From Mycetocola zhadangensis (GTDB lineage Bacteria; Actinomycetota; Actinomycetes; Actinomycetales; Microbacteriaceae), in the NCBI RefSeq assembly GCF_003668565.1, contig NZ_RCWJ01000001.1, positions 992,001 to 1,056,000 of the forward strand: 64,000 nt of DNA, read 5' to 3'. Below are positions 16,454 through 34,488 of this stretch, piece after piece. Every line of letters starts with the position of its first letter. Positions within the stretch are counted from its first letter, which is position 1. A program made the position numbers and the translations under genes. The notes beneath the pieces are model-generated. The model saw only the letters and a list, made by a program, of their open reading frames with translations. It had not been told where the DNA came from and ran no database searches.

Positions 16454-16498
16454 ACCCGAATGGTAGTCGACCAGATGTGGGCCCGGCCTATCGCTTCA

Positions 16499-16906: not shown

Positions 16907-17140
16907 GGCTTCCTTCGGTGTTGGGACCCAATGAGCGGATGCTATTCATTGGTTGGAAAATCGCGGACCAAGGCTGGCCGGAAAAACGCCCAGCAAGCGA
17001 TGCCGTGGAAATCTGAGGCAAGGTGCGAGTCAGTTCTGCATAGCCGAACCGTTCCACTGGGGAACGGTGCGGTGGAGTGCCCCAGGTCGCCACGGTCCGA
17101 GCGCACCAGCCGTGTCGACCGCGCTCGACGACACTTTGAG

Positions 17141-17650: not shown

Positions 17651-17852
17651 GGAGCCATCCTCCCATTCCGATCGATCCTGCTTCTGCCCTCAGCGGTTCG
17701 GACCCGTCCCAGCAGACCGCGGCCCTGCCGCCCGATTGTTGGGGTGCTCTCGGCCCACGTTTACATTGGACGCGGCGGTAGCCTCTTCCTACATCGAGCT
17801 ATTGCGTGCCGACCGTCTGGGTCACCAGGAAGCCTGGTGTAAGAATGTTCAC

Positions 17853-18419
17853 GTGAACGACAGTGACAGCCCGCGTCGACCCGATGTAACAACCGTACAA
17901 ATCGTCGGGGGAGCTGAGCCTCTCTCCGTCACAATTCATCCCTACGACGACGGTTGGGTTGGCATTTTCCTGGAGCACCGACGAACGATCCGCAATGTCC
18001 TCGGAGATTTCGCCATCCAGATCGAGCACATCGGGTCCACCTCGGTTCCCGGGCTAGCAGCGAAGCCGATCGTGGACATCGTGGTCGCGGTGCCCGACAT
18101 CACCGCTGAGGAGGACTACCTCGATCCGCTCCTTGCTGCCGGATTTGAGCTGCGGGTCCGCGAGCCGGGCCATCGCCTTGTCCGCACGCCGACCCGCGAC
18201 GTCCATGTGCACCTCTACGAGCAGGGCGCTCCTGCTGTCGACGAGTATCTGCTGTTCCGTGATCATCTGCGGTCCGATGCCGACGACCGCAGTCTGTACG
18301 AGAACACCAAGCGAGCGTTGCTCAACCAGCGGTGGGACGACATGAACGACTATGCAGACGCAAAGACCGACGTCGTCCTCGCGATCAAAGAGCGCGCACG
18401 GGCGGCCCGCGAAATATAA
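17853..18419 (+). CDS. GrpB/UPF0157 family protein
   Basis: A 188-residue protein of the GrpB family, a nucleotidyltransferase-like fold. The signature IEHIGSTSVPGLAAKPIVDI and the HVHLYEQGAP and LLFRDHLRSD motifs are all present. The biochemical role of stand-alone members is unsettled. The GTG at 17853 is preferred: AAGAAT lies six bases upstream and the conserved region starts soon after; the frame is open further upstream without family similarity. Confidence 0.85.
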   Translation: MNDSDSPRRPDVTTVQIVGGAEPLSVTIHPYDDGWVGIFLEHRRTIRNVLGDFAIQIEHIGSTSVPGLAAKPIVDIVVAVPDITAEEDYLDPLLAAGFELRVREPGHRLVRTPTRDVHVHLYEQGAPAVDEYLLFRDHLRSDADDRSLYENTKRALLNQRWDDMNDYADAKTDVVLAIKERARAAREI

Positions 18420-18633
18420 CCCCGCACGCGGGCGTGAAAGCTCCTCCCGCAGCAGCTTGTTGCGTTCCGAACCTCGGCAGGCTTGACCGATCGCGCCCGG
18501 AATCGCGTTCAGATGAACCCACCATGAACGGACTCTGGCGGCGGAATTGAGAGTTTCGGCCCCCATAGATCGGCGTCACAATGGACGGACCCGGATCCGG
18601 GAAACGACGAGGGGTCGGCTCAGAGGAGTCTCG

Positions 18634-19281
18634 ATGCCCGAAGTCCCCGAACCGCCCGCAAAAAAGACGCAATCCAGCCGTTGGAGCATGAAAAAGGCGT
18701 CCGTGGCCGTTGGGGTGGCTGCTGGGTTGGTGACCATACTCGCCGGTGTTACCGCGATCGTCGGAGCCTTCAGCAGTTCCCGGGTGGCCAACGCCCCAAC
18801 CTGCAACGACCCGGGCTCGCTCAAAGAAGTCGCCGTCGAGGGACTCGTCGCCAGTAGCGAACTCGCGGAGCCACCGATCGTGCATAGCGCGAGTCGGCTG
18901 ATCGATGGAAATCTCAACCGCGCTTGGGTTGAAGGAGCCGAAGGCTATGGGGTCGGCGAACAACTGGACTTCACGTTCGACGAACCCGTGGATTTGAAAC
19001 TCATCTGTGTTGTGAACGGGTACGCGGGGACGCTTGCACAGTATGAAAAGAACGCCAGGGTCGGTCAGTTTGAGATCACGACTCAAACCGGAACGAGTAC
19101 CGACTCTCTCGGTGTGAAGGCCCCGAGTGAGTACGCGAACGCGCAGGAACTTGAGTTCCAACAGGGGATGACCGCAACCGTACGGCTTGTACTCACGTCC
19201 GCTCGACCGGGCACGGGCGCAAACGCCACCGAAGACACTTCCATCAGCGAGGTGACGTTCTGGGCGAGTACCTCGGATTGA
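18634..19281 (+). CDS. Membrane-anchored protein with NADase-type glycan-binding (discoidin-like) domain
   Basis: A 215-residue protein with a cytoplasmic Pro/Lys-rich start, one membrane helix (VAVGVAAGLVTILAGVTAIVG, residues about 23-45) and an extracytoplasmic beta domain. That domain has the sequence pattern VASSELAEP, LIDGNLNRAWVEGAEGYGVG and VVNGYAG found in NADase-type glycan-binding/F5-8C-like domains. AGAGGAG precedes the ATG; the frame extends upstream to 18547 without support. It probably binds surface carbohydrate. Confidence 0.75.
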   Translation: MPEVPEPPAKKTQSSRWSMKKASVAVGVAAGLVTILAGVTAIVGAFSSSRVANAPTCNDPGSLKEVAVEGLVASSELAEPPIVHSASRLIDGNLNRAWVEGAEGYGVGEQLDFTFDEPVDLKLICVVNGYAGTLAQYEKNARVGQFEITTQTGTSTDSLGVKAPSEYANAQELEFQQGMTATVRLVLTSARPGTGANATEDTSISEVTFWASTSD

Positions 19282-19284
19282 TCT

Positions 19285-19500
19285 GATCGGTGTCAGTCGG
19301 CCAGTTTCGGTGGCCGCATTGCCGAAAGGATCCGGGAACACCGTGGCCCTATTCAACAAACGGTGTCCGTGGCCCGCCTCGCTCTGCCAGTAGAGGCGGT
19401 GGTCATGCGACCGACTCCTCGACGAAAGGTGGTCCTCGCCCTCGCCAAACGCGAAAGCAGCGTCGGCCGACTGAAAGGCCCCCGCGGCTGGACGTTGGGC
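19285..19500 (-). pseudogene. Decayed ASCH-domain gene remnant
   Basis: Read on the minus strand, this stretch encodes ADAAFAFGEGEDHLSS, then RSRSHDHRLYWQ, then a remnant ending ATETGRL. It parallels the end of the intact ASCH protein at 17141 (VDAAFAFDEGEGDRSLESW; ending PPDLAD). The DNA also matches in part, for example the CAGTCGGCCAG at both 3' ends. No intact start or N-terminal half is present and the frame runs into unrelated sequence. It is a relic of a duplicated or exchanged ASCH gene just outside the island's left end. Confidence 0.6.
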
Positions 19501-19786
19501 CTGCCTGTGGCGGGTCGGGGCCGTTCTCGACGCTCACGAGTAGATGGAAATTGTCCATCGACCGGCCGAACCACTCGCCAAACATCCTTAGAGTTCCTCC
19601 GCGAACGCGTGCAATCTGCGAGGAGAGGTCAGCGCTAAGGTCACCCGCGCCGTTCAGGGGATGAGGCTGTACCGCTCAGGGCCCGGCTTCGGTGTTCGGG
19701 CGGAACCGCTCGCCAGCATCACGCCCCGCAAAAGAAAGCCCCTCCACTCCCGCGTATTCGCTGGGAAGAAGAGGGGTCAAACGGTT

Positions 19787-19815
19787 GTGCCGGTGGTGGG
19801 ACTCGAACCCACACG
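19787..19815. other. Left attachment site of the genomic island (tRNA-Leu 3' end copy)
   Basis: These 29 bases are identical to 37676-37704, which hold the T-arm and acceptor 3' half of the intact tRNA-Leu. The rest of the tRNA is missing here. The copy sits at the end of a 77-base imperfect repeat (19739-19815 versus 37628-37704, about ten mismatches) that also includes a terminator-like hairpin. This is the classical result of site-specific integration into a tRNA 3' end. Confidence 0.9.
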
Positions 19816-19970
19816 ACGCCCCTCTCCGAACCAACGTTTCCGCGCAATTCCGGGCCTGTAACAACACAGCATGCCACGAAATGACTTGGAATAAAGGGAT
19901 GATCCCTTCATTTCGAACCGCAAAAATCCCCGCATGATCCATCGACACCGAAACGTGCGAGGTCGTCAAG

Positions 19971-20225
19971 CTACCGGCGCGCGCGTCGCTCCAGGTTTCT
20001 CAGTGCACCCGCGGAGAGACCGGTGCGCTGTTGGCTGGCCCCCGAAACGATCGGTTGGCTCTTCGCAACTATGAACTCCTGAATGGCGTCCTCTGGAAAT
20101 GCCCAGGTACGGGAAATCTTCATGCCCCTGATTTCTCCGTTCCTCGCCAGCGTGCAGAGGTGTCGTGGCGTGGTTCGCAGGATGGCTGCTGCCTCTTCTG
20201 CGGTGTAGATCTGCTGGATTGACAT
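19971..20225 (-). CDS. Excisionase-like helix-turn-helix protein
   Basis: An 84-residue MerR/excisionase-type HTH protein (YTAEEAAAILRTTPRHLCTL, then ISRTWAFPEDAIQEFI), the usual form of Xis/AlpA-like proteins that direct recombination or control integrase. AAGGGA precedes the ATG at a suitable distance. Its place 156 bases inside the left attachment site, with the integrase at the other end, fits a recombination directionality factor; a transcriptional role is the alternative. Confidence 0.8.
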   Translation of the reverse strand: MSIQQIYTAEEAAAILRTTPRHLCTLARNGEIRGMKISRTWAFPEDAIQEFIVAKSQPIVSGASQQRTGLSAGALRNLERRARR

Positions 20226-20738
20226 TGGCTTCCCTTCAAGCTGCCGGTCCTAGCTCTATGCGGGTCGAGTCCATCCAGGTGTTCGACCGCGAAATGCCGG
20301 CGTAGCGGTTACGCATCTGTGGTCTCACGGGTGCAGCGGACGTCACGCCAGGGGGAGCCAGCCAGCGGGATCATGTCGTGGGCGTTGCGTTGCGCCGGGC
20401 GACGATGGACGGAGCAGCCCGGGCATCACACCAGCGGCGCTATGGTGATCTTCCCTGGTCCTGACGCCAGTGTGTCCTGACCTCCCCTGAGATATGCGCA
20501 CGGCTAAGGATGCGCCGCCCATAAAGGATGCGGAGGGCACCCTCTGCGGGTCGGTCGCTTCCTTGTGCAAGGAGAGGCGGCCGGCCATTTCCTGTTGAGA
20601 GCAGAGACGTCACGGCGCCGTCTAAGCCGGCAGTGCCGCAAGGCGGGCTACCAGACGGAGGGCCGGGCAAGCCCCGCAGCGGGCCTCACAGCAAGCTACC
20701 AAGCGCATCACAGGGTCGGCGCCGCGCATGAACCAGAC
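20226..20738. other. Intergenic stretch, no gene recognised
   Basis: About 510 bases between the excisionase-like gene and the HELAH protein gene. Frames here are short and compositionally unlike protein. I see no tRNA, strong terminator or repeat. It must hold the promoters of the divergent neighbours. Confidence 0.5.
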
Positions 20739-21476
20739 ATGGAACACAAACCGCGCCGTCAGATGGTTCTTCCCACGCTCGCGGTCGCCCTCTCAGTGCT
20801 GCTTTTCGCCCCTGTGGCTGTGCAGGTCTTCGCTGGTCCGACGGGCCAAACACGGACAGACGTGACTGCCGCTGCTCAAAGAATCTTCGCCATTTACGAT
20901 GTTGAGGGCGTGGAAAACATCGTCATCACGGAGGTGGAAGGCCTGACCGTTCTCGGCGAGACACCGGAGGGCACTGTCGCCGCTCTGGGGCCCGCTACGA
21001 CCGAGATTCTGATGGCGCCGAAGAGCCGGTTTCGGACCGCTGGTGAGTGGGCGACCGTCCTCCTCCACGAGCTTGCACATATTCGCCAGAAACAGATAGT
21101 GGATGCCCGAGCGCCTCACGGTGGTTGGGCCAGGCTATTTGCTTGGGCCGAGCTAAATGCCGTGTTGACAACCGATGCGCCGCCAATCCATGAGCGGCAT
21201 GGGCGCCTGGTGCTCGGTGCGCTCGAGGCCAGTGCTTCATGTTCTGTGGACCTGGCGAACCGCGGAGACAAACCGTACATCGAATCCGGCTGCACTTGGC
21301 CACAGCGTGCGGCAGCGGCCTTGATTGACGACGCGCTTTGGCCAACCGGAGAGCGAGTTCAGGAGCGGGCAGCAGAGCTCGAGGCTGCGGACACCGTGGC
21401 ACGGGAAGCCTCGCAGCGGTTGCGTGACAGAGCGGAATGTGTTCTCGTTGGTCGCGGCATGGCGAAGATCTGCTGA
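20739..21476 (+). CDS. Membrane-anchored or secreted HExxH protein
   Basis: A 245-residue protein with a basic start and a hydrophobic segment (LPTLAVALSVLLFAPVAVQVF, about residues 10-32) acting as signal peptide or anchor. Near the middle it has VLLHELAHIRQKQ, the HExxH zinc-metalloprotease motif. The rest is Ala/Glu-rich with four cysteines. A third zinc ligand cannot be assigned with certainty. I do not recognise a named peptidase family; HELAH alone is suggestive, not proof. The ATG at 20739 lies just ahead of the signal segment; the frame is open upstream. Confidence 0.65.
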   Translation: MEHKPRRQMVLPTLAVALSVLLFAPVAVQVFAGPTGQTRTDVTAAAQRIFAIYDVEGVENIVITEVEGLTVLGETPEGTVAALGPATTEILMAPKSRFRTAGEWATVLLHELAHIRQKQIVDARAPHGGWARLFAWAELNAVLTTDAPPIHERHGRLVLGALEASASCSVDLANRGDKPYIESGCTWPQRAAAALIDDALWPTGERVQERAAELEAADTVAREASQRLRDRAECVLVGRGMAKIC

Positions 21477-21819
21477 GGGCCGCCCCAGTGTGCACCTTCC
21501 TACGGCGACACCGCCCGACCCTCCTGCACCTCATGCCGGTCCGCCGCAACTCCTACACCGGCTGTTGACCGTGCTGGTGGGCGTTCCGGCAACGGCAGAG
21601 GCGGGTCGTGAGCAGCCGCGAGGAACGAGCGGGGCCTCATGTGGAGCCGCTACATAGACACGCTCTCGCTTGTGCGACATCGACGCTGGAGTTGATCGTG
21701 GTGGTCCGCACGACGGTCGCTTCGTCTGCGCGCCTGAGAGAGGCGTCCGCGTAGCTCGGTCCGACAACCACAATAAGACCGCGACAGGCGAACGGGACGA
21801 CTATTGGTACAACTTAAGC
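21477..21819. other. Intergenic stretch, no gene recognised
   Basis: About 340 bases between the HELAH gene and the DUF2971 gene. It contains no convincing frame, hairpin terminator or repeat. TACAAC at 21808-21813, six bases before the downstream GTG, may be a leaderless-type -10 element. Confidence 0.4.
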
Positions 21820-22761
21820 GTGACCGTTTACCAGCCCCCGCTGCCGGGGATGGATGCACCTCCGGCAAGCACGCGTGGAGTGCTCTGGCACTATACGTCT
21901 GTCAATTCGCTGGAGGCGATCGTGGGCTCGAGTATCTGGCGCGCCTCGTCCGTTCGCGACATGAACGACTTGGATGAGTTGCGGCTTGGCCAGCGCCGCC
22001 TGAGGAGAGCCGTGCGAGAGATGCGCGCGGCGCGTGGGGAGTTCGTCGGGGATCTTGAGGATGTCGTCGAGGCAGCTGTTGAGAACGTCTTCGAGACAGG
22101 CGGGTTCGGTATCTCCTTCAGCAGGGACGGTGACGACAACTCGCAGTGGGAGCGTTATGCCGGAACTGACGGAGTAGCAATTGGCGTCAACCGATGGCAC
22201 TTCCCAATGCTGTTCGATCGAACGGGGCAGTTCTCGTCGGCGGTCGACACCAACCTGATGGACTACCCGCTGCATTGGATGACGATGCGATATACCAAAC
22301 GCAACCAACTTCAGATTGCGCGAGAACGGTTGGCGGCTGCTGCGGACTTGATGGAGCGGGCCGATTCTGATTCAGTATCCTTTTCGATGTGGCAGAGGGC
22401 GAATGTGTCGGCCGGGTTCGCCCTCTCGGAGCTGATTATCTCGTGCAAGAACCGCGGGTTCCGATCCGAGCGCGAGATCCGCTATGTGGTTGGCGCTCCC
22501 TGGGATCGGACTCTTATCAAGGACGGACCTGGCGGACGAAGGTTCGTGGAGGTCACCGGAGGCGCCGAACGGGCGGGGCACCCGAGCGGAAGCCCCCAAC
22601 ATTCCACGAGATTTACGTCACCGCTCCCGATCGCATTCGTGCGCACCGGCCCTGCATGCACGACGCGGACCCGTCAGTATGTTTGTGCGCTTCTTTATCG
22701 GGACTACCCGCAGACAGCGGTGTTGCCTTCGAAGAGCACCCTGCGCGTCACAACACGATGA
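21820..22761 (+). CDS. DUF2971 family protein
   Basis: A 313-residue protein. The start of the conserved part, VLWHYTSVNSLEAIV then RASSVRDMNDLDEL, together with GISFSRDGDDNSQWERYAG, VAIGV and the later CKNRGFRSEREIRYVV, reproduces the order of motifs in DUF2971 proteins. These are common in prophages and islands and have no established function. The GTG at 21820 is chosen because TACAAC lies six bases upstream; an ATG at 21850 or a longer frame is possible. Confidence 0.75.
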   Translation: MTVYQPPLPGMDAPPASTRGVLWHYTSVNSLEAIVGSSIWRASSVRDMNDLDELRLGQRRLRRAVREMRAARGEFVGDLEDVVEAAVENVFETGGFGISFSRDGDDNSQWERYAGTDGVAIGVNRWHFPMLFDRTGQFSSAVDTNLMDYPLHWMTMRYTKRNQLQIARERLAAAADLMERADSDSVSFSMWQRANVSAGFALSELIISCKNRGFRSEREIRYVVGAPWDRTLIKDGPGGRRFVEVTGGAERAGHPSGSPQHSTRFTSPLPIAFVRTGPACTTRTRQYVCALLYRDYPQTAVLPSKSTLRVTTR

Positions 22762-22783
22762 AGGGCCCCGCGTGCGCACGATA

Positions 22784-22816
22784 GAGCCGCCCTTCACCTG
22801 AGCTGTAGGGCGGCTC
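22784..22816. terminator. Hairpin terminator after the DUF2971 gene
   Basis: A perfect 10-base inverted repeat (GAGCCGCCCT / AGGGCGGCTC) with a 13-base loop lies 22 bases past the DUF2971 stop. Only a short T-containing run follows (TTCGTT), so it is a GC-rich stem typical of actinobacterial terminators. Confidence 0.6.
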
Positions 22817-23591
22817 TTCGTTCAGCGCTTTAGGCCGCTCGGCGGTCGAGGCCGTTCAGCGACCAACTGCTCGGCGTCGGCGAACCCGGCCTAAACAGGC
22901 GGGAGGGGGAGCGGTTGGAGGACTGTCGAGCCGCGCGGCGTGGAGCGCCCTCGAGCGATTGAGATGGCCAGTCAAGAGCGCATTCATGCTGCGGCGCTCA
23001 GGGGCAGGCCACGAGCCTCCTGGTTGACACTCGGCTGGCCCATGCCGAGGCGCACGCTCTAGCCGGGGCCGATCGGAGATCCACATCTCTGGCTCCGAGC
23101 AGCACCGTCGTTCTGATGACGCGGGACATCAACCGGTTTGACGAGTGGATCCACAAGCGGTTGTTGTCAGGGAGTGTCAGCGCCCGAGTCCTTGCATTGG
23201 TCCCGCGGGCTCGGTGCTCGAGCAGAAGATAACTGTAGCCCCGTCCGATCGGTTGGAGCTGTAACGCGCAGCGACAGTTACGGGAGGCGGCGGTGTGTAT
23301 GCGCTCTTCGGGTGTGGACTGAACGACCGACGGAAGGGCGCGACGAAGTCGCCTTCACCGGGGGAGCGTCGAGTGAGCTGAACGCGGTTCGGCCGCCCCG
23401 GACTGGGGAACGGAACTGTTCGGCGGCATCGATAGGCTGACCATAATCGGCCCGAAAGAGCGCCTCAAGTTCACCTCCGACTCTTGGAAGGAGCCCGTTG
23501 CGACGGGTGGCTGATCGCTACAAGATGGAGGAAAACTTTGCGCAGTATGCCACCGTGGGCGATTGAGATGCGCACGACTCCGCGCTAAGAA
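22817..23591. other. Long intergenic stretch with a possible gene fragment
   Basis: About 775 bases without a convincing gene. On the plus strand near 23020-23230 an open frame reads LLVDTRLAHAEAHALAG and TVVLMTRDINRFDEW, ending at a TAA. The second piece has the shape of a PIN-domain C-terminal strand (TVVLTxD), which could be a toxin remnant, but no start or N-terminal acidic motif is visible. Otherwise I see no RNA gene or repeat. Confidence 0.3.
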
Positions 23592-24260
23592 TTGCTGGTC
23601 AACCTACTGGTCGAAGAGCCTGATGAAGGTACAGCAGGGTTGTTTCGAATCCACTTGCTTGAAGCTTACGAACGCGTGAAGCATCAAAATCCCGTCAGCA
23701 TAGAAGATCCGCTCCTTCGCCTGATGGTTCGACTTTCGGACCAACGCGCATATTCCTTGGGCACGGACAACGGGACATGGCTCGCGCTGTTCGCCATCCT
23801 TCGCGAGGAGTCTCCGGAAACCTTCGCGAGCTGGGTGAACTACCACCACGAAGACTTCTGGTTGGATCAAGACATTGGACAGGTCGCCGCTTGGGCCTAC
23901 GAGAACGCCGACGGCGTTATCGTTGAGCGCTTCCCCGGCTTAAATGAGGCTTTATTGAGAGCGGCTACTGAGGCAAGGCGACAGGCCACAGAGCGAAACA
24001 CATCCCAAACAAGCGGTAATGAGGCCAAGGGTGGTTGTTACATTGCCACCGCAGTGTACGGCTCATACGACGCAGATCCGGTGCTCACGCTTCGCCGTTT
24101 CCGCGATGAACGGCTGTCCCTCTCAGCGGCAGGGCGCGGTTTCATCCACTGGTACTACGTCATAAGCCCGGTGCTCGTTCGGCGGTTCGGGCACGTGGAC
24201 GCGCTGCATCGGTCCGCGAAGTTTCTGCTCGACAGAATCGTGCGGCGGCTCGAGAGCTAG
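23592..24260 (+). CDS. CFI-box-CTERM domain protein
   Basis: A 222-residue protein. Residues 1-130 are helical and not recognised. After a polar linker (RNTSQTSGNEAKG) comes GGCYIATAVYGSYDADPVLT and LRRFRDERLSLSAAGR, then WYYVISPVL: the CFI-box C-terminal domain, here CYIATAVYG. Its function is unknown, though it recurs at the ends of many otherwise different proteins. The start is uncertain: a TTG at 23592 is the first in-frame candidate and has no clear ribosome site, so the N-terminus may be truncated. It lies 338 bases upstream of the AIPR gene in the same direction. Confidence 0.65.
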   Translation: MLVNLLVEEPDEGTAGLFRIHLLEAYERVKHQNPVSIEDPLLRLMVRLSDQRAYSLGTDNGTWLALFAILREESPETFASWVNYHHEDFWLDQDIGQVAAWAYENADGVIVERFPGLNEALLRAATEARRQATERNTSQTSGNEAKGGCYIATAVYGSYDADPVLTLRRFRDERLSLSAAGRGFIHWYYVISPVLVRRFGHVDALHRSAKFLLDRIVRRLES

Positions 24261-24586
24261 ACGCCTCGATCTCGAGAGAAGGGATCCCCGTGTGCTCCAG
24301 GAGCACGCCGCCTCGTTGCGCAACTGAAGGTCGGGCTGGCCAGATGTGTAACAGCCGGAGCAAAAATGCCCTGCACGACGACGACGCTATCCGGGCTCAA
24401 ACTGGCTATTGCCCTCATGAGCCGGCTATCGATAGACCGCATATCGGTGCCGACGAGGGATCAGGCACACCTCGATTCGGCGAACGAGGAAAGCGACAGA
24501 GCTGGCTGCTTGGTTCGAACCTCAACGCCCCGAACTCGGGTCAGGAAGATTCCGTCGAGTAGCGCGAAGCGATCGAGCCGCGCATA

Positions 24587-24592
24587 TAGGGT
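24587..24592 (+). promoter_or_regulatory. Probable -10 element of leaderless AIPR gene
   Basis: TAGGGT, within TATAGGGT, six bases upstream of the ATG. It follows the same TAnnnT-N6-start pattern as at least eight other genes in this window. No convincing -35 is visible. Confidence 0.5.
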
Positions 24593-24598
24593 TTGGGC

Positions 24599-26284
24599 AT
24601 GGATGTGAATGATCTTCGTTATAAGCCGCTCTCCGCCGAACTAGGCAGAGTTCAAACGGACACTGGGCTGCCCGAATCGGCGTCCTTTCTCTACTGGTTT
24701 TTGATCAATGTCTATCGGCTGGAGGAGACGGACGCTCGCGACGCGATTTGCGATAAGCCGAACGATAAAGGTATTGACGGAATCTATGTCGACCACAACG
24801 AACAAGAAGTGCATTTCCTTCAGGCCAAGATTCGTCAGAAGAACAACGGCACCGTAGGCGACGTTGGACCAAAGAATTTGATGTCGTCGATGCATCAGTT
24901 CGGGACCCCCGAAAAGGTGGCGACAATATTGGCTGGGAATGCGAGCCCGGAACTGAAACGACTCGTCCAGCGAATTCAACTCTCCGATCTTCTCTCTTCC
25001 GATTACTCGATCCGGGCCATATACGTATCCAATGAGCTCAGTGACACGGACTCGAACGCGTATGAAGCGCTGACACCGGAGTTGCGCATATTTGATCGAA
25101 AAGAGATTGCCGCCAGCGTTGTGGACCCAGCCGCCTCGACCGGCAAAGATGAGTTCACTTTCAACACCTCGTATGTCGAGCCGATGGAGGTTGAAGCTGG
25201 CACCCCTACATCACGATCGACGATGTACGTGTTCCCGGCTTCAGCCCTACAGCTCGTCCATATGGAGGGGATAAGCGATGGCTCCTTATTTGAGGACAAC
25301 GTCAGGTTCACTCTGGGCAATACCTCCGTCAACAAATCCATCAAGGCTTCGGTGGTGGACAAGTCCACACATGCTAACTTCCTGCTCTTCCACAACGGGA
25401 TTACGGTCTTGTGCAAAGAAGTCGATGCCAGCACCGAAGGCCAACTGAAGGTAAAGACTTATACCGTGGTGAACGGTGCTCAGAGTCTCACAAACTTCTA
25501 TAACAACAAGGCGAAGCTGACGGACGATCTTCGCGTTCTAGTGAAAGTAATTGCCCTAGGTGACGACGCACTCGCTCGCACCATCACCGAAAACAGCAAC
25601 AATCAGAACGCAATCAAGCCGAGAGACATGAGGTCGAACCACGTCCTTATGACCAGGCTCCAAACGGAAATGTCGTCGTCGAGGCCAGACTATTTCTTCG
25701 AGATCAAAAGGGGCGAAAAAACGCCCACTGGGAAGACAACCATTACCAATGAGCTGGCCGGACGAATACTGCTTTCATTTGACTTGAACGAACCCTGGTC
25801 CGCCCACCAAATCTACAAAGTGTTCGATGAAAAGTACGCGGCTATCTTCGGCCGTCCCGAGGTCAACGCTGCTCGCATTGTTTTCCTGTACCGACTCAAC
25901 TTGGTCGTCCAAGACAGCATGGCGCGAGTGAAGAATCGGCCAATGGCGTCTTACACCCTCACACGATTCTTTATTCTGAGCGTATTAGCGGAAATCCTCA
26001 GGGGGGGTTCGGCGTCGGGTCAAGTGATCAAAAATCCCTCGATCTTTGACGAGCGGACTATCGAGTCGTTGTTACTGACCTCTGCCGAGATTCTGAAGAC
26101 CCTCATCGTCGACCTCAACGTCGCAGCTGCTGGCGAATTCGATTACAAATCAGTTTTGAAGAGCCCTTCGCAGTCGAACGCCATTGCTGCAACCCTCCGA
26201 AAAGATTACGAAAAGGATGTGCTTCGCGAGAAGGCCGAGCCGATCGAGACCTGGGTGATTCCTGACTCCAAGAAAGCATCGTAG
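24599..26284 (+). CDS. AIPR-family protein with N-terminal nuclease-like domain
   Basis: A 561-residue protein. Residues 45-85 show NDKGIDGIYVD followed by VHFLQAKI, the D...QxK spacing of a restriction-endonuclease-like (PD-(D/E)xK) core. The remainder matches AIPR (abortive infection phage resistance) proteins: HNGITVLCKEV, the TYTVVNGAQSLTNFYNN motif, then NSNNQNAIKPRDMR and a long helical C-terminus. AIPR members are tied to phage resistance in several bacteria, with mechanism poorly known. TAGGGT (24587-24592) lies six bases before the ATG, suggesting leaderless expression. The gene is clearly more A+T-rich than the chromosome, indicating transfer. Confidence 0.85.
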   Translation: MDVNDLRYKPLSAELGRVQTDTGLPESASFLYWFLINVYRLEETDARDAICDKPNDKGIDGIYVDHNEQEVHFLQAKIRQKNNGTVGDVGPKNLMSSMHQFGTPEKVATILAGNASPELKRLVQRIQLSDLLSSDYSIRAIYVSNELSDTDSNAYEALTPELRIFDRKEIAASVVDPAASTGKDEFTFNTSYVEPMEVEAGTPTSRSTMYVFPASALQLVHMEGISDGSLFEDNVRFTLGNTSVNKSIKASVVDKSTHANFLLFHNGITVLCKEVDASTEGQLKVKTYTVVNGAQSLTNFYNNKAKLTDDLRVLVKVIALGDDALARTITENSNNQNAIKPRDMRSNHVLMTRLQTEMSSSRPDYFFEIKRGEKTPTGKTTITNELAGRILLSFDLNEPWSAHQIYKVFDEKYAAIFGRPEVNAARIVFLYRLNLVVQDSMARVKNRPMASYTLTRFFILSVLAEILRGGSASGQVIKNPSIFDERTIESLLLTSAEILKTLIVDLNVAAAGEFDYKSVLKSPSQSNAIAATLRKDYEKDVLREKAEPIETWVIPDSKKAS

Positions 26285-26333
26285 TGGAAACGCAAGTTTG
26301 ATCCTTGCGCCTGTGTGGGTCGTCCGCGTCAGA

Positions 26334-27581
26334 TCATTTCCGCTCGTAGGCGACCGCGTTCCGAACGCCCGCCTGGCCGCTGACGTCGAGCGGGCTGGTC
26401 AGGACAGCGTCACGTAGAGCCGTCGCGAAGACCCGGACCGCCGTGAGTTGAGCCGGGTCGGCCAGATTGGTTATCCGCGGCGCGCCGCCGAAGTGGGCTA
26501 CGAGGTCCCGGCCCCATTGGCCACCATTGACGTAGTTCGTTTTGGCCACGGCGGCCAGCTCGGCTTTGGCTGCGGCCTTGGCGATGTTGGCCTCATGCAG
26601 TTTGGCCTTGGCCTGCCCAGCGTTCGCGGCGGCCAAGTCCAGCTGATCGGCCAACGGTTGACTAGTCGCCAGATTCGGTAGGGCCAGGATGCCCTGGCCG
26701 GCCAAAGCCTTGAAGGTCTTCTGGCCAGAGCCAGCCACAATGCCAAAGCACCAGCCTTCGGCCAGGCTTCGCGACGGAGCCGTCATGTCGGCCAGTAGGC
26801 GGAAGAAGACGCGCCTGCTGAGGCCAGCTTCGGCACCGAACGACCAAGCCGGGTGCGTGGCCGTCATGATGAGTTCGGCTGCCTCGTGCGAATCGAAAGC
26901 GCCGGTGGCTAGCGCTGTGATGAGATCCTCATTCGCCGCGGCGGTGGCTCGGGCAGCGTCTGACCGGAGCGGAGCGACCCGGTACCGGGGCGTGCCATTC
27001 GCAGTGCCAACCCTCGTCAGCCACCCTGCCTTGACTGCATCAGCCGCAGCCTTCGACGCGGTCGTCGATTTTCCCATCTGCATCGCGAGCCAACCGCCCG
27101 TCATCAACACTGCGTTCTGAGACTTCTCGTCCAAGAGAGTCCCGGTGATGGTGGCTCCTGCAATCAACAGAGCATCCCTTGCGTTCACCTCCGCCTGCGG
27201 TTTCAATCGCGGCCGATCCGGGTTCTGTTCAGTGAGGAGGTGACCTACGAACTTGCGCGCGTGGGCGATCCGCTCTGCCACGCGGGCCGCGTCCTCAGGA
27301 GCGAAAGAGCGAAGGGCGCGCGCCTGTAGCGCTTTACGAACAGCGAGACGCCATTGCCGTTGGCTCTTCGTGACGGCGCGGTAGCGCTCGTCCGTGTCGA
27401 TACGAGACAGCGAAAACCTGACGTCGGTCGGTGTGACGTGCGGGTACTCGAGCAGGCGACAAAGGACGGTGAGAACGCAAGAGAAAGCGTCGGAGTCGGA
27501 ACGCCCGGCCATAGCTTTACGGGCGGCAGCATCGAGGACGGCAATGGAGGGTTTCGGGGTGTAGGAGGAGAAGGTGACCAT
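26334..27581 (-). CDS. Ala-rich protein with winged-helix-like segment; candidate replication protein
   Basis: A 415-residue protein that I cannot place in a family. Residues 75-110 are basic (RQWRLAVRKALQARALRSF). Residues 165-200 (LAMQMGKSTTASKAAADAVK, AGWLTRVG, PRYRVAPL) look like a winged-helix DNA-binding unit. Residues 305-350 are an Ala/Lys helix that may be a coiled coil. Size, position facing the long noncoding region and the DNA-binding segment would suit a replication initiator of an integrative element, but this is inference. The ATG at 27581 has GGAAC-type spacing; longer frames upstream lack support. It is convergent with AIPR. Confidence 0.55.
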   Translation of the reverse strand: MVTFSSYTPKPSIAVLDAAARKAMAGRSDSDAFSCVLTVLCRLLEYPHVTPTDVRFSLSRIDTDERYRAVTKSQRQWRLAVRKALQARALRSFAPEDAARVAERIAHARKFVGHLLTEQNPDRPRLKPQAEVNARDALLIAGATITGTLLDEKSQNAVLMTGGWLAMQMGKSTTASKAAADAVKAGWLTRVGTANGTPRYRVAPLRSDAARATAAANEDLITALATGAFDSHEAAELIMTATHPAWSFGAEAGLSRRVFFRLLADMTAPSRSLAEGWCFGIVAGSGQKTFKALAGQGILALPNLATSQPLADQLDLAAANAGQAKAKLHEANIAKAAAKAELAAVAKTNYVNGGQWGRDLVAHFGGAPRITNLADPAQLTAVRVFATALRDAVLTSPLDVSGQAGVRNAVAYERK

Positions 27582-28596
27582 GGCCGGGAGTTCCTTTCGA
27601 AGATTTGAAGCAAACGAGTTGAAAAGCCAGGTCCAACAAGCCCGAAGTAGCGGCGGCGCGAAGCAGAGCCGTCTCTTCGGTGCGCGGTAGTACAACGGCT
27701 TCGAAAACAATGTGTGCGGCAAGGCGTCAGAAACACAGACAACGACCAAGCAATATGGGTGGAGCCTGCATCCCCCTCGCAGGCTCGGGGCGCCACTCAT
27801 TGACAGCGCATCGAGACGTCATGCAACGCACAGGAAGAGCGCGGTGTGGAGGGCAGGTTGTGACAGCGAGAAAGCATCACGAGAAGCGGTCGAATCGACA
27901 CCGTTGTGATCGGCAGCACGGAGAAGCGAACCGCCGGGGAGTGCAGACCACGGGCTGAGTACAGAATGCGGGGGAGCGAGGGAGCGCTAGCGAGCGGTGG
28001 GGGATCGCGATGCGAGGGGAAGCAGGCGAAGAGGGGCAAGCCCCTTGGTGGCCGAGCGATGACTACATGCTTCTAAGAGAGAGCTACCTCTCTCCCTCTC
28101 AGATGATCACTTCTTTCCTCCGGTCAGTCGAGATCCTCTGTTCAGTCAGAGCTAGTTCTGTCTTGAAACAAAAGCTCTCTCATTCAGATGCTTTCCTCTC
28201 CTTCTGCTTTTTGTAGTTTCCTCCCTCTCTTGCGCGCTCTTCGCTTCCCCCTGTCTTTCCTTCCGGCTCGGCTCCGCGGTCGGTCTTCCCGGCTCGGGCA
28301 ACCATTGCGGTGTCGCTCCCGCCATCGGTGTCGCTGCTGCGGGCGTTATTCGCTCGGGTCCCGCAGACCGGTCCCGCTGTCAGGCGTTGCTGCTTTTGCT
28401 CCGGTCCGACTGGTGTCTCATCACCTGATGCACTCTGTGCTTGCTCTTCGCAAAATTTGCACCCGGCCCTTGAGAACCGAACCTGTCGCAGACCGGAGTT
28501 CGCCTCGAACGACTCTGTCGTCAACCGGAACATCGGATGGGGCCGAGCTGTATTTCCTTTCACAAGCATGGCGCTGCTCACCGGTATTCTGAGCCG
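27582..28596. other. 1-kb noncoding region with pyrimidine-rich strand
   Basis: No convincing gene lies here. From about 28085 to 28270 the plus strand is strongly C/T-biased (many CTCTC and TTTCCT runs). Just before it, GAGAGAG (28077-28083) and CTCTCTC (28088-28094) form a small hairpin. The region separates the candidate replication gene from the next plus-strand gene. Origins of replication or transfer can look like this, but no iterons or nic consensus were recognised. Confidence 0.4.
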
Positions 28597-29064
28597 GTGA
28601 CTATCACCTTGTCTATCCCGGACCTCACCACTGTGCTCGCCTGGATCGGTGCCCTCACTGGCGTCGCCGCTCTGGTGTGGCAGGTCGCGACCTGGCGGAA
28701 GTCCACGCATAACGTCAAGGTCCGAGCTGAGAATCGATGGATCGCATACGCCGATGGCAGCCTGAGTGAAGACCTGGTCTGCGTAATAGCCCACAACACC
28801 GGTTCGGGTGCTGTCACTATCGAAAATTGGGGGATCGCTGTCCGAAAACATGGCAATCTCGCTGCGATTAGGCCACATCCGCAGTCCGCGATCTTGCCGC
28901 ATCGTCTGGAGCCGGGCGCCAGCGCAGCGTTCCACATCGAGGCCAATTCGCTTAGGCAAAAGAGCTCTGAGCGGGGCGTACCTTTCGGACAGATGAAGCC
29001 GTGGGTTCGCTTAGGGACCGGACAGCGCATACTGGCAGGTCGGGGCGTGCCGTTGAAGAGATAG
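28597..29064 (+). CDS. Single-pass membrane protein, 155 aa
   Basis: The N-terminal hydrophobic helix (TTVLAWIGALTGVAALVWQV) is followed by a basic stop and a beta-rich cytoplasmic domain (VCVIAHNTGSGAVTIENWGI, then LPHRLEPGASAAFHIEA). This resembles Ig-like accessory proteins of mobile elements with no known function. TATTCT at 28585-28590 lies exactly six bases before the GTG, which fixes the start and implies leaderless transcription. Confidence 0.65.
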   Translation: MTITLSIPDLTTVLAWIGALTGVAALVWQVATWRKSTHNVKVRAENRWIAYADGSLSEDLVCVIAHNTGSGAVTIENWGIAVRKHGNLAAIRPHPQSAILPHRLEPGASAAFHIEANSLRQKSSERGVPFGQMKPWVRLGTGQRILAGRGVPLKR

Positions 29065-29157
29065 GCAAGCGTCCGAGTCGTCGTACTGTTCAAACCATCG
29101 GGACACCTTCCGGGCTTCGGCCGGCGGCGCGGGATGGCAGCGATGAGGCGCTAAGGG

Positions 29158-30111
29158 TTATGCCCCGTTGGACTCAGCTCGACGAAGCAGGCGTACCGGG
29201 TGCTCAGGTAGGTCGAGCAGCCCCGCAATCTCGGGAGCCAGCGCGAGGTGTGACCACTCGACCCAGGTCGGCGTTTTTTGACCTATCAGCGGGCAGTTGC
29301 GCTCGTCAAAGAGCTCCAGCGCGACCTCAATCATGTCCAGTGCGGCTGTGTAGAACATTGCAAGTACTCCGACACTTGTAGTCAAACGGTGTTCAGATGT
29401 GCCATTGACCGGCAGCGTCAGTCGTTTCCGCTCCAGCAAGTTCAGAAACATCGCTGAGTTGCCGTGGGCCATTCCGCTGGAGAGCATCCACAGGGCCACG
29501 GGCGTTTCAAAGGCGTTTGGAACCAGTGGGCTGATTTCTCGCAGACGAGAGGTGAGGAAATCCGGCTTGAGCGACTTTCCAAAATTCCCCGGTCGCGCGT
29601 CTCGCAACTCGATCATCCGAGCGTTCATGCGGTCAAAGCCGGGGTCGTCTCGGCCAAGCTCCAGCATCACCTTGTTAACGCTCCTCCGCGAATCATGCGT
29701 GATTTGGAGCGACCGGAGTACCCGCGTGTCTCGCTGCCTCGGGCTCATAAGCCATAGAGCGTTGCCGCACGATTCGTAAGCGGATCGAATGAGCGTCCAC
29801 CACGCGAAGGTCATGATCTTCCAGTTCGAATCTTCGATCGCCACTCGAAGACCCATCAAATGGTCTGTCGCCACCGCAATGGCTGAGTTCACCTGTGAGG
29901 AGAGAGGGGCGTATGGGGTTGCCCGGTCATCGCCAGCCAACGACGTCGTTGGGGCCACTCGAGCCTGGTCGGCTCTTCCTGTGAGCGTGTCCAGGCGCTG
30001 AAAGCTCAGTTGCAGAAGCGCGACGCCCTGCTGCTCGGTAACTTCGGGGGACTGGACGTCGTCTGCATCGTCATGACCATCATCGCGTTCGGGCTGCACA
30101 GCATTCACCAT
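29158..30111 (-). CDS. Hypothetical helical protein, about 317 aa
   Basis: I do not recognise a named family. The protein is nearly all alpha-helical, with a conserved-looking centre (TLIRSAYESCGNALWLM, RDTRVLRSLQITHDSRRS) reminiscent of uncharacterised actinobacterial proteins with a HEPN-like helical core, but the HEPN RxxxxH pair is not clearly present. The start is uncertain: in-frame codons at 30258, 30135 and 30111 are possible and none has a good ribosome site. It is transcribed in the same direction as the CoiA-like gene upstream. Confidence 0.5.
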   Translation of the reverse strand: MVNAVQPERDDGHDDADDVQSPEVTEQQGVALLQLSFQRLDTLTGRADQARVAPTTSLAGDDRATPYAPLSSQVNSAIAVATDHLMGLRVAIEDSNWKIMTFAWWTLIRSAYESCGNALWLMSPRQRDTRVLRSLQITHDSRRSVNKVMLELGRDDPGFDRMNARMIELRDARPGNFGKSLKPDFLTSRLREISPLVPNAFETPVALWMLSSGMAHGNSAMFLNLLERKRLTLPVNGTSEHRLTTSVGVLAMFYTAALDMIEVALELFDERNCPLIGQKTPTWVEWSHLALAPEIAGLLDLPEHPVRLLRRAESNGA

Positions 30112-30288
30112 ATCGACCCGAACTATGCCGACCATCGGCTGGGGCTTCGGCCTGTGCATGATCGAGGCTGGCCGTCTGTCACGGCCAATCCGTTCTCGTC
30201 GCCCCGAGGGCAGAATCAACAACAGAAACGGGTTCCTCTTAGAGCGCGAACCACTCACGATGGTTAGCCCTTCGTCAAAGGCCGGCCT

Positions 30289-31806
30289 TCAGCAAATTAC
30301 ATGCAGCCCGATGTCCCACAGAACTGGGTCCAGCGGCTTCTCGCAGCGCCCACAGGTACGCACCGCGGCTTTTTGGGGGACGGGTACTGGCGCTGGTCTC
30401 GCACGGCCAAGCATCGGACTCGGTCGACGTGGTCGGTCCCACCTGGGGCGGTGCGTCTCTATCTCGTCATCTTCCAGAGGCAATGGGTCGATCCAATCCA
30501 CTTTCCTTTGTGCGTGCACCTGGCGCCGCCGTTCTGCATCCTCGCGGCTGATGATGAGGAACTTGGACTCATCGCTTCCCACCCACCAGGGGGCGTTTGA
30601 CGTTCTCGTCAGCAGGCCAGCTTTCTCTAGCCCTGTTAGCCATGCGGCGGCGATCGAGTATCGGATCTCGTGGTTAGCGGCGACGGAGCCGGAAAGCGCG
30701 CGTGCACACTCATCAATGCTGACCGTGCGGCCATCCCGGTCGCCCTGAACAAAGCGCTCGTAGAGAAAGCACTGCCATGCAGCTGGAACGACCGGTAGCT
30801 TTCCCCCGATCGGTGCCTCGAGGTAGCCAGGCAAAGCACCACCGAAGCGTTTGAGAATCCGTTGGCGCAAAAGCGATTGCGCCCATTCTGCTTCCGCCAT
30901 TTGAAGTGTTTGTGCGCGTGCCACCTCGCGCTGCCGAAGTTGCTTTGCCTGTCGGGCCTGACGTTCCATCTCGCGCCTGGCGAGCTCATCTCGATTGGCA
31001 TGGTGCTGGCGAACCGGTTCGTTCCAGAAACCGGTTTCAAACAGGGCAAACGACTCAAGGTCGTAGACCGCCAACTCGCCATGGTGGCTTGTGGCGGGAA
31101 CCGGATACTCGCGGCCGTCAGCGGTAACCAGATTCACAGCCGCCGCAATCTTTTGGGCGAACGGGTTGAACCAGTACACGGGTTGGCCGCTAGCTGCCAC
31201 CATCTCGTGGGTGGGGTTCAAGAGGACGGAGCGATCCTCGCGCGCGTAACGCCGGAACTGCGCCCCGGTGCTCCCGAACAGCCAAATGTCCACAATCTCT
31301 TGACGCCGATACGACTCGTGCCGCCTTTTCCACTCGGCAGGGGTGAGGGCTGAGAACTGGATCTCAAATGCCATCTTGCGACCGTTCGGGTTTTCAATCA
31401 TGACGTCGGCTATCCGCTCACGATCAGTCGTCGACTGTTCCTCAGTCACTTTGCAATGTGGGTAGCGGCGCCGCAGCCATTCAGCGATTCTGCCCTTCGA
31501 CTCAAGGTGCGCATAGGACTCGGCGCTATGTCCACCGCTGCCGCCACCGATGTGGGTGAATCCATCGCGCTTGTGCGGGTGGCGAGCAACCGTCCGAAGT
31601 TCCGGGGAGGGGCACCCGGGGATGGGGCAGCGCAGCTCAGTCTTCGTGCGCTCACGCCATTGCTTCGCCTCCCCGTCAGGGAGTAAGAGTAGGTCTCCGC
31701 CGTCGATGTGCCGGGCGAAGATCATTCGGCGCTCACCCTCCGCGAACGCAGCGATCAGGTTCGGGGCATGGCGCACGTTTTCAAGGTACTGAGAACGGTT
31801 GTCCAC
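30289..31806 (-). CDS. CoiA-like nuclease-domain protein
   Basis: A 505-residue protein from a GTG start. The segment AESYAHLESKGRIAEWL, then CKVTEEQSTT, RIADVMI, MAFEIQFSALTPAEWKRR and YRRQEIVDIWLFG follows the CoiA competence-protein pattern, with the D...ExQ residues of a restriction-endonuclease-like fold. The C-terminal half has an Arg/Gln-rich helix (residues 280-330) and ends with a possible zinc-binding CGRCEKPL. CoiA acts in processing of incoming DNA in transformable bacteria; stand-alone relatives on islands may be nucleases of other use. Confidence 0.75.
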   Translation of the reverse strand: MDNRSQYLENVRHAPNLIAAFAEGERRMIFARHIDGGDLLLLPDGEAKQWRERTKTELRCPIPGCPSPELRTVARHPHKRDGFTHIGGGSGGHSAESYAHLESKGRIAEWLRRRYPHCKVTEEQSTTDRERIADVMIENPNGRKMAFEIQFSALTPAEWKRRHESYRRQEIVDIWLFGSTGAQFRRYAREDRSVLLNPTHEMVAASGQPVYWFNPFAQKIAAAVNLVTADGREYPVPATSHHGELAVYDLESFALFETGFWNEPVRQHHANRDELARREMERQARQAKQLRQREVARAQTLQMAEAEWAQSLLRQRILKRFGGALPGYLEAPIGGKLPVVPAAWQCFLYERFVQGDRDGRTVSIDECARALSGSVAANHEIRYSIAAAWLTGLEKAGLLTRTSNAPWWVGSDESKFLIISREDAERRRQVHAQRKVDWIDPLPLEDDEIETHRPRWDRPRRPSPMLGRARPAPVPVPQKAAVRTCGRCEKPLDPVLWDIGLHVIC

Positions 31807-31922
31807 GGGCAGCCCACGAAATAGGGGCGCTCAGGTCGGAGGACGCTTCGCGAGTCACACTCTCCATGAGGCCGGCGACTATCCAAATTTCGTATTTGCC
31901 AGGTGAAGCATCGACGTCGATC

Positions 31923-32240
31923 CTAGAAGTCGCGCACAGCCACGTCAGCCGCGAAGTTCATTGCCAGCTCGGAGAGCAGCAACGAGGTGATGATCGCCAC
32001 GACAATCACCGTCGGCCAAAGCCACTTCGGCGCGGCACCCTTCCCAGGCTTCGTTCGACCGGCTGGTATTGGGACCTCGGAAGTATTCGGCGCGATCACT
32101 GGAGGCAGAGGAGCGGGCAGCGTCCGCGGTGCGGTGTTCTCGGTCCACGCGGTTGCGTTCCAATACCGCCACACGCGGGCGTCGGACGGATCTGGGTACC
32201 ATCCCGCTGGAATCTGCGAGGGAGGAGGCAATGAAGACAC
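31923..32240 (-). CDS. DUF2510 domain membrane protein
   Basis: A 105-residue protein. It begins with the DUF2510 motif (PAGWYPDPSDARVWRYWNATA, with WT next), continues with a Pro-rich linker and ends in one membrane helix (WLWPTVIVVAIITSLLLSEL). DUF2510 is a short extracytoplasmic or cytoplasmic module common in actinobacterial membrane proteins; its role is unknown. TAACTT on the minus strand (32247-32252) lies six bases before the GTG start. Confidence 0.75.
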   Translation of the reverse strand: MSSLPPPSQIPAGWYPDPSDARVWRYWNATAWTENTAPRTLPAPLPPVIAPNTSEVPIPAGRTKPGKGAAPKWLWPTVIVVAIITSLLLSELAMNFAADVAVRDF

Positions 32241-32456
32241 AATCCAAAGTTAGCGGCGCGCCACATCGAGCATCCGCCGCCTCGGTGCCCCAATTCGGGC
32301 TGAGCACCCGGTCGCCTCCATCTGCCGGCGTTGCTCAGCGCGAGCCAATCGCTGACGGGAACAGCCCCGGTGCGGTTGGCGCGGTTGCACGAGCGCATTC
32401 CAGCGCTTGAGGGTTCGCTCCCGCTGCATTCACGGAGAGGCCATTACGATCGACCC

Positions 32457-32879
32457 ATGCCTTCGGAACCCCACCCCATGAACACTGCCGAACGTCGTCG
32501 GCGCGCTCAGTTTGAATCTCGACGTGACGCTCCCGCGGTGAAAAGGCCGCGCGCTGGGGCGAAGTCGTGGACGCGCGCCCCTGGAGCTCGCGTGTTGATG
32601 GCGGGGCTCCTCGCGTTCATAATCTCGAACGTCATCGTGCTTGCGCCGAGTTCGAACCCCTCCATCGAGGTATACGGGCGACTCGCAGGTATTGCCTTTT
32701 CCCTGGCCGCGACAGTCCTCGCGGCGGTCGCGGCGGTGCTATCTGGTGTGGAATTGGCGAGCAGACGGAGGCCGGTTCACGGGAACGTGCCGCTCGTCAT
32801 CTTGATCGCCTCCATAGTTTTGTTCGCCATAACGGTCCCGGTGGCCTTTGGCGTCAACGTGCTTTTGAGCGTGATCTAA
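32457..32879 (+). CDS. Three-helix membrane protein, 140 aa
   Basis: A basic N-terminus (about 40 residues) is followed by three hydrophobic helices (VLMAGLLAFIISNVIVLA, GIAFSLAATVLAAVAAVL, LVILIASIVLFAITVPVA). No family is recognised. TACGAT at 32445-32450 lies six bases before the ATG, supporting this start over longer in-frame ones. Confidence 0.6.
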   Translation: MPSEPHPMNTAERRRRAQFESRRDAPAVKRPRAGAKSWTRAPGARVLMAGLLAFIISNVIVLAPSSNPSIEVYGRLAGIAFSLAATVLAAVAAVLSGVELASRRRPVHGNVPLVILIASIVLFAITVPVAFGVNVLLSVI

Positions 32880-33175
32880 AAGGGTGTCGACCGTGCCGCG
32901 GGCATGGCAATAGAACCGCGGACGGGGCCGTTACGACCCCGGAAAATTACCATTTGGCGTCGAGCCGACTAACTCGGAAGCGGCGCCAGCATTGCCTGCA
33001 TGTTTTTTAGTTCGCTCACGACGGCCAAATCGTGATCGACGAACCCATCGGTCCGACACCTCGACGAGCGTTTTTGATTGATCGCAGAACTTTCTCGAGT
33101 AGCTCTTGACCGAACCGTCTTCAGCTTCCGAGGCGTGCGTCCAACCGGCAAAGAAACGGAGGGGGAAGGCTTCGC

Positions 33176-34363: not shown

Positions 34364-34389
34364 CTAGGTGCTCCGTTCGTACTGGGAAG

Positions 34390-34416
34390 TGATAATCCGG
34401 TACTAGCAGATTATCA
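34390..34416. promoter_or_regulatory. Palindromic operator upstream of the Fic gene
   Basis: TGATAATC and GATTATCA form a perfect eight-base inverted repeat with an 11-base spacer, 27 bases upstream of the Fic start. The arm centres are 19 bases apart, about two helical turns. The A/T-rich arms can overlap a -10 element for minus-strand transcription. A dimeric HTH protein, perhaps the Fic winged helix itself, could bind here. Confidence 0.6.
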
Positions 34417-34456
34417 GCACGCTGTTCAGCTAATAAGAAGCACAAAACCTAGCCCA

Positions 34457-34488
34457 GAAAGCCCCCACCGCCCGCCGGCGGGGCTTTC
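34457..34488. terminator. GC-rich hairpin upstream of the 132-aa gene
   Basis: GAAAGCCCC pairs perfectly with GGGGCTTTC around a 14-base G/C-rich loop. It lies between the divergent Fic gene and the plus-strand gene at 34617. Without a T-run its termination role is uncertain. Confidence 0.4.

Follow-up and report, generated by a model that had tools for sequence, protein, structure and literature searches.

The gene described here lies in a 64,000-nucleotide stretch of the Mycetocola zhadangensis genome (3.32 Mb), positions 992001-1056000 of contig 1, referred to below as the window. Its product is a protein of the AIPR/AbiU family, recognised by its open frame, by profile matches and by third-position bias in comparison with relatives, and is predicted to carry a nuclease-like domain in front of the family core. 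The gene and its parts are:

24587-24592 (+): TAGGGT, a -10 box of the TANNNT type whose end lies 6 nt upstream of the ATG; the start is probably leaderless
24599-26284 (+): AIPR/AbiU-family protein, 561 amino acids
24599-25123 (+): predicted PD-(D/E)xK nuclease domain (Mrr/MspJI-like), residues 1-175, from an AlphaFold2 model, VIA-align and a Mrr_cat profile alignment
24764-24829 (+): predicted metal and putatively catalytic residues D56, D60, Q75 and K77 (codons 56-77), from conservation and the Mrr alignment
25184-25615 (+): AIPR core, possible ParB/Srx-like nucleotide-binding domain, residues 196-339, from ParB chains at Z up to 5.0, a weak DndB profile alignment and conservation
25616-26281 (+): C-terminal region, mostly helical in the predicted model, residues 340-561

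The AIPR gene, its start and its composition

The frame is open for 561 codons, from the ATG at 24599 to 26284. An alternative in-frame TTG at 24593 appears in the list of open reading frames (ORFs), and the ATG is preferred because the closest relatives, loci L002 and L009, both carry an ATG at the equivalent position. According to the initial annotation, which was made from the sequence alone, the C-terminal two thirds of the protein belong to AIPR. The family was correctly recognised but the extent was overstated, as the Pfam match (PF10592) covers residues 231-378 only (E 1.6e-30, 107.3 bits, gathering score 25), although the PADLOC AbiU profile extends over residues 228-533 (E 5.1e-37, 126 bits). 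Differences at codon positions 1, 2 and 3 amount to 0.31, 0.21 and 0.64 against L009 (62% identity) and to 0.32, 0.24 and 0.59 against L002 (59% identity). This excess at the third position is the pattern of a coding sequence whose amino acids are under constraint, and the core is its best-kept part in both comparisons (0.74 and 0.66, respectively).

A leaderless start and a foreign composition had also been proposed, and both find support. In the three upstream regions inspected, a TANNNT box ends 6 nt (window gene, L009) or 7 nt (L002) before the ATG, while of the 1459 ATGs that the two strands of the window hold, only 9 show the box at that spacing; the three regions may share ancestry, so that they are not fully independent cases. 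Expression from a leaderless start is therefore probable. Guanine-cytosine (GC) content is 0.519 in the gene and 0.622 in the window. A low GC content may characterise this AIPR gene lineage, since three relatives in other hosts are likewise AT-richer than their own loci (L002 0.572/0.666, L009 0.520/0.597, L003 0.492/0.604).

A predicted nuclease fold at the N-terminus

In regard to the N-terminal part, the motifs GIDGIYVD (residues 58-65) and FLQAKI (residues 73-78) are found where the initial annotation had recognised the metal-site spacing of restriction endonucleases. The AlphaFold2 model of the whole protein, built from a 24-row alignment, has a mean predicted local distance difference test score (pLDDT) of 87.1 and a predicted template modelling score of 0.74, and its N-terminal domain is alpha-beta, not a helical bundle. 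Structural matches were ranked with VIA-align, which re-examines Foldseek's own list and is not an independent search. Within residues 1-175, the best match is AF1548 (Z 10.1 over 112 residues, root-mean-square deviation 3.0), followed by MspJI (Z 8.9, 120 residues), AspBHI (8.5, 126), FokI (8.3, 129) and a Pyrococcus repair endonuclease, which we take to be NucS (8.0, 92). The AF1548 structure is titled 'unknown function' and presumably has a PD-(D/E)xK nuclease fold. EndoMS, Cdn1, HamA of Hachiman, Can2, Card1 and Shedu come next, cap-snatching endonucleases are also present among the fold matches, and chains of the RNA polymerase subunit Rpb5 reach Z 4.0-5.7. Of the first 16 rows, almost every one is a named nuclease or part of one, and the fold assignment carries weight for this reason, not because of Z alone. 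The alpha-beta nuclease core anticipated by the initial annotation is thus present in the model.

Sequence searches of solved structures gave nothing up to E 1 with the single protein; the alignment, used as query with a limit of E 10, matched a designed construct (E 0.17) and nothing else. A profile of the domain was prepared from a 35-row AIPR set (own protein included, rows with fewer than 40 residues in this part excluded) and compared with a Mrr_cat profile of 9 proteins from genomes of the host's family (9 of 11 matches used), giving E 6.3e-5 and a probability of 64%, while DndB, ParB and three reversed profiles, used as controls with the same domain, gave E 0.32-0.75. A wider AIPR set gave E 8.6e-5 and 60%, with controls at E 0.22-0.74. 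In the alignment, NDKGIDGIYV falls on Mrr NDGGIDGII and LQAK on Mrr VQAK, within about one gap, and D60 and Q75xK77 are thereby placed on the D...QxK of Mrr, in agreement with the restriction-endonuclease-like metal site proposed earlier. Likewise, hmmscan at E up to 10 listed Mrr_cat for 6 of 22 AIPR proteins (best 0.006) and Mrr_cat_2 for 2, the only families besides AIPR matched by more than one member; HMMER filters discard most weak matches. The window protein itself matched neither of the two under the same limit, and it is for this reason filed as a relative of Mrr (Mrr_cat, PF04471) and not as a member. Considering the alpha-beta core of the model, with Z up to 10.1, and the site D60, Q75 and K77, which is present and conserved here and lost in some relatives, a Mrr/MspJI-like PD-(D/E)xK nuclease fold is predicted for the N-terminus.

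Can2, Card1 and the cap-snatching endonucleases include RNA cutters. Their presence among the fold matches could indicate that the N-terminal domain acts on RNA, as a toxin-like abortive-infection RNase, which would also be in keeping with PMC3506569, where AIPR proteins are said to carry a HEPN RNase domain at the N-terminus. The only Rx4-6H motif found on scanning the window protein (R342...H348) is situated in the Pfam AIPR region and not in the N-terminal domain; of the 35 rows, 26 share its R and 6 its H. The N-terminal domain of the model is alpha-beta, without a helical bundle. Furthermore, the HEPN survey PMC3710099 treats AbiU2, and the term 'AIPR' is absent from the part of that text at hand. 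A HEPN N-terminus is hence unsupported for the window protein, and action on RNA appears decidedly unlikely. Kinship with Mrr and MspJI favours DNA as the substrate of the predicted nuclease.

Conservation and loss of the predicted site

In an alignment of 22 proteins (A2), whose other 21 rows are 15-62% identical to the window protein, D56, D60 and Q75 are invariant. Among rows with a residue at the position in the 35-row alignment, D56 and D60 are each kept in 33 of 34, Q75 in 33 of 33 and K77 in 30 of 33. The sole exception at D56 and D60 is a fragment (L007), while K77 is replaced by Leu in L013, Tyr in L015 and Arg in L024. Partial sequences (L007, L025, L026, L046) were kept in the alignments, whereas L008, with a stop within the match, was left out of all of them and L010 was dropped as being at the same place as L002; L028, whose frame lacks the N-terminus, was left out of alignment A6, and L029-L033, L036, L037 and L040 were omitted as lying on the same contigs as earlier loci.

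As both sets were collected by similarity to the window protein, a separate sample is given by PF10592 matches in 346 genomes of the phylum, of which 18, own included, hold one. All four residues are kept in 9 of the 17 other proteins (L112, L114, L116-L119, L124, L125, L127). Three more (L115, L120, L122) retain D, D and Q, with Glu, Ala and Tyr, respectively, in place of the lysine. By alignment, L110 and L111 are devoid of the whole site, yet they are the strongest Pfam AIPR matches and long AIPR proteins, with open frames of 676 and 671 codons; they are possible natural dead-site variants. The remaining L113, L123 and L126 fall short of the region in the frame read, although L113 still shows Q and K.

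Judged by these alignments, the AIPR proteins examined usually carry the nuclease-like front. The initial annotation had considered the combination a special fusion, which could not be upheld, as the same motif is found in most of the examined relatives that have the region. The front has apparently decayed in some AIPR lineages, and because some members, among them seven relatives, are without the lysine or the site, cleavage is probably dispensable in parts of the family and probably not needed throughout it. Such losses could also point to a more modest role, in which the gene would not serve defence in this host at all and would be passenger DNA or an addiction gene of the element that carries it, with a nuclease that no longer matters. 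The lack of a conserved partner gene (see below) and of a known phenotype of this copy would agree with it. On the other hand, the motif is intact in the window copy and the codon-position differences reveal amino-acid constraint in comparison with relatives, which makes this the least probable of the explanations, and a very improbable one.

The AIPR core

Residues conserved across the AIPR (PF10592) relatives, NVR, HNG/NNG, VNGxQ and NxQ, are found in the window protein at 234-236 (NVR), 265-267 (HNG), 291-295 (VNGxQ) and 334-336 (NxQ). The ParB/Noc entries 6sdk, 7bnk, 7bnr, 5k5d, 7ng0 and 7bm8 match inside residues 196-339, with Z of 4.3-5.0 (VIA-align), the best of them showing 23% identity over 96 residues to a structure with bound cytidine diphosphate. 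No other listed row covers mainly this part, and parts outside residues 1-174 were barely tested by the list.

Profiles of DndB (19 proteins) and ParB (19 of 20 loci, L097 dropped) were compared with that of the core. DndB gave E 0.056 with a probability of 1% over 56 columns (reversed DndB 0.59) and, with a shorter core, E 0.045 (reversed DndB 0.50, reversed ParB 0.15); in the alignment, VVNGAQS is paired with IVDGQHR of the DndB consensus, and SNNQN with the subsequent FADLN stretch. Pfam DndB (PF14072) was not listed as a match for the window protein, which has VNGAQS instead of DGQHR. Direct sequence kinship of the core with ParB was rejected, as pairwise scores were no better than in a control and the ParB profile gave nothing. 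In the accessible part of PMC4619093, the conserved elements of the DGQHR domain are described as a QR pair, DGQHR and FxxxN, and NVR, VNGxQ and NxQ parallel them in order. The N-terminal domain of DndB has also been assigned to AbiU1/AIPR, according to the available part of PMC3506569. As a reading that is likely but only suggested by model and motifs, the fold of the core would be ParB/Srx-like and nucleotide-binding, with a distant resemblance to the DGQHR domain of DndB.

MspJI reads modified DNA through a separate recognition domain. By analogy, the window protein could use its predicted nuclease without gating by a nucleotide, as a type IV-like restriction enzyme that depends on modification and whose AIPR core and helical C-terminus would read modified DNA. 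MspJI and AspBHI, the latter titled modification-dependent, are among the best fold matches, the profile kinship is with Mrr, and the neighbouring ORFs scanned hold no methylase or restriction-modification gene, as would be expected for a stand-alone enzyme. However, the kinship demonstrated by the fold matches is confined to the nuclease, Pfam shows neither SRA nor another known DNA-reading domain in the window protein, and the most conserved residues of the core (NVR, VNGxQ, NxQ) look like ligand-binding motifs. We therefore regard such an enzyme as unlikely.

Proposed mode of action and comparison with known systems

The explanation that we favour, and consider reasonably likely, is a solitary phage-defence effector of the AIPR/AbiU type in which a Mrr-like nuclease would be gated by a nucleotide, following a logic like that of SspE/GmrSD. 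Computed support covers the nuclease fold, the conserved site (D60, Q75xK77 and probably D56) and the AIPR core. During infection, the core would sense a phage-linked nucleotide, a nucleic acid or a DNA modification and could switch through nucleotide binding or hydrolysis, freeing the nuclease. The freed nuclease would then cut DNA, so that phage DNA would be destroyed or the cell would be lost together with it. AIPR would represent a design parallel to SspE with a PD-(D/E)xK cutter in front, spread via a tRNA-Leu integrative element and probably expressed without a leader. A role in phage defence is proposed by analogy, from the AbiU profile match and a weak match to MzaE.

Several results weigh against this explanation. 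VIA-align itself states that best Z values of 7-8 are typical for models lacking a clear match, a level which AF1548 and MspJI barely exceed and which ParB, at most 5.0, does not reach. Foldseek gave no match at E <= 0.001, its best rows being Card1 (0.057) and MspJI (0.11), and no usable model was obtained when the N-terminal domain was folded singly, from its own sequence and no alignment (pLDDT 32). With Mrr, hhalign gives a probability of 60-64%, which does not approach 100%, while for the core the E of 0.056 with DndB is near that of the best control, reversed ParB (0.22), and pairwise alignment of AIPR with ParB reached a mean z of 0.14 versus 0.34 in the control region. In addition, the lysine or the entire site is missing from some AIPR proteins, and the neighbouring ORFs that were scanned included neither a defence partner nor a restriction-modification gene.

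Comparison with known systems places the window protein within AIPR/AbiU1 (PF10592; PADLOC AbiU), as its length and N-terminal motif are those of its relatives and nothing defining separates it from the family. With MzaE (NF041935) of the MZA anti-phage system, to which an AIPR protein belongs by NCBIfam naming, it shares an AIPR-family core (match at residues 209-354, E 6e-7). However, it scores 28.3 bits against a cut-off of 1050 and, by this profile, is not MzaE; the scanned ORFs included no further gene named as MZA-like. The predicted PD-(D/E)xK domain and the D...QxK site are as in Mrr/MspJI endonucleases, but here the nuclease is joined to an AIPR core and Pfam finds no other Mrr or SRA domain. 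SspE/GmrSD (DUF262 and HNH) and DndB are alike in the possible ParB/Srx-like core and in the layout of nuclease and nucleotide switch. SspE and GmrSD differ by an HNH nuclease at the C-terminus, instead of PD-(D/E)xK at the N-terminus, and DndB by DGQHR in place of VNGxQ; homology to these systems is not significant. For SspE, a recognise-hydrolyse-activate scheme in which GTP (guanosine triphosphate) hydrolysis licenses the HNH nuclease is given in the accessible part of PMC13251355, while GmrS is predicted to have a ParB/Srx fold and GmrD is a putative HNH nuclease (PMC4619093, available part). The core may also have its fold in common with fusions of the ParB CTPase (cytidine triphosphatase) fold, surveyed in PMC12704722 with ParB models including PF02195; as far as its accessible text goes, HNH and other fusions are reported there, and a term search of the main text found AIPR, AbiU and Mrr all absent.

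The gene itself is ordinary, a further AIPR member on a mobile element. What could be useful is family-wide, namely the Mrr-like front domain, whose site has been lost in certain lineages, together with a possible switch operated by a nucleotide. More broadly, and as a tentative proposal that may well prove wrong, AIPR proteins as a whole could combine a Mrr-type nuclease with a nucleotide switch of the ParB/Srx kind. They would form a nucleotide-gated, single-protein class of defence, with a different nuclease and reversed order in comparison with SspE/GmrSD, several lineages of which would keep the switch and lose the cutter. If true, the combined nuclease and switch would replace the published HEPN reading. 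The predicted site (D60, Q75, K77) and the possible pocket (NVR, VNGxQ, NxQ) make the family testable with few mutants, with the site-less relatives as natural controls. In the literature searched, mostly open papers, the HEPN prediction was the only AIPR mechanism found, and others may be in print elsewhere. Neither the Mrr-like front nor the switch is stated in the available parts of PMC3506569, PMC2292703, PMC9122126, PMC5379612, PMC3710099, PMC10853773, PMC12839542, PMC4619093 and PMC12704722.

Genomic setting and distribution

The gene had initially been regarded as island cargo, and its surroundings bear this out. An exact 29-bp repeat bounds an integrative element of 17.9 kb (19787-37704), with the following features:

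19787-19815 (+): left attachment-site repeat, 29 bp, exact copy of the tRNA-Leu 3' end
37676-37704 (+): right attachment-site repeat, inside the tRNA-Leu gene
37676-37759 (-): tRNA-Leu (CAA), insertion site of the element
36075-37685 (-): tyrosine integrase of the element (PF00589, E 5e-22)

No other copy of the repeat was found in the window at up to 3 mismatches (chance mean 0.00). The integrase frame as scanned touches the tRNA, and its true start is probably further into the gene. The segment 23592-27800 has no match in any of the five other genomes of the genus, while the tRNA-Leu region and the sequence to its right are matched in all five. Four of them were compared over stretches of 17-18 kb (E <= 1e-10). 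There, sequence related to 15.1-15.6 kb of the window (three genomes) or 13.0-13.4 kb (one) is situated about 0.15-1.6 kb to the left of the tRNA, and nothing matches 19.8-37.6 kb at the tRNA site. As the flank lies near the tRNA and 19.8-37.6 kb is unmatched, the site is without this element in these four genomes, judging from the aligned sequence. About 4 kb to the left of the element (15600-19787) are also unmatched beside the tRNA in the same four genomes and are possibly an older insertion; part of this stretch (about 18.0-18.4 kb) has relatives elsewhere in two genus genomes.

Larger genes of the element, in a scan of part of its ORFs (PADLOC took in 8), encode a weak zincin-like match, a DUF2971 protein, a CFI-box-CTERM protein, AIPR, a 488-residue protein without assigned family, CoiA-like and Fic proteins, a weak DUF2637 match and the integrase. 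The CoiA nuclease-like domain protein has 505 residues (30289-31806, -; PF06054, E 1.7e-13). The Fic/DOC protein (33176-34363, -), with a C-terminal helix-turn-helix, is a possible conflict gene. The protein at 26334-27800 has matches in three other genomes of the 298 searched, own included.

By protein search, AIPR relatives are present in 12 of 299 genomes of the family, own included, and in none of the five other genus genomes. Plasmid records match in 61 cases, four of which cover at least 80% of the query, and three Salmonella phage records match residues 230-417 only; scans of viral contigs with two distant AIPR sub-alignments had no yield. A conserved partner gene was sought among the ORFs of 35 AIPR loci and of window 19816-31000, with many flanks of 1.5-3 kb or cut by contig ends, and was rejected, as common neighbours were found at a few loci only. 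By eye, these are L023/L028, L034/L035/L038 and L041/L043, plus single distant pairs at L003/L023 and L003/L035, while the remaining listed matches are other frames inside AIPR genes. The neighbour at L035 is an impB/mucB-type polymerase. At L041, a locus on a viral contig, a ResIII helicase-like gene (L041:2-2911) is located directly upstream of AIPR and is shared by L043, also a viral contig, which fits the restriction-modification link of AIPR given in the available part of PMC3506569.
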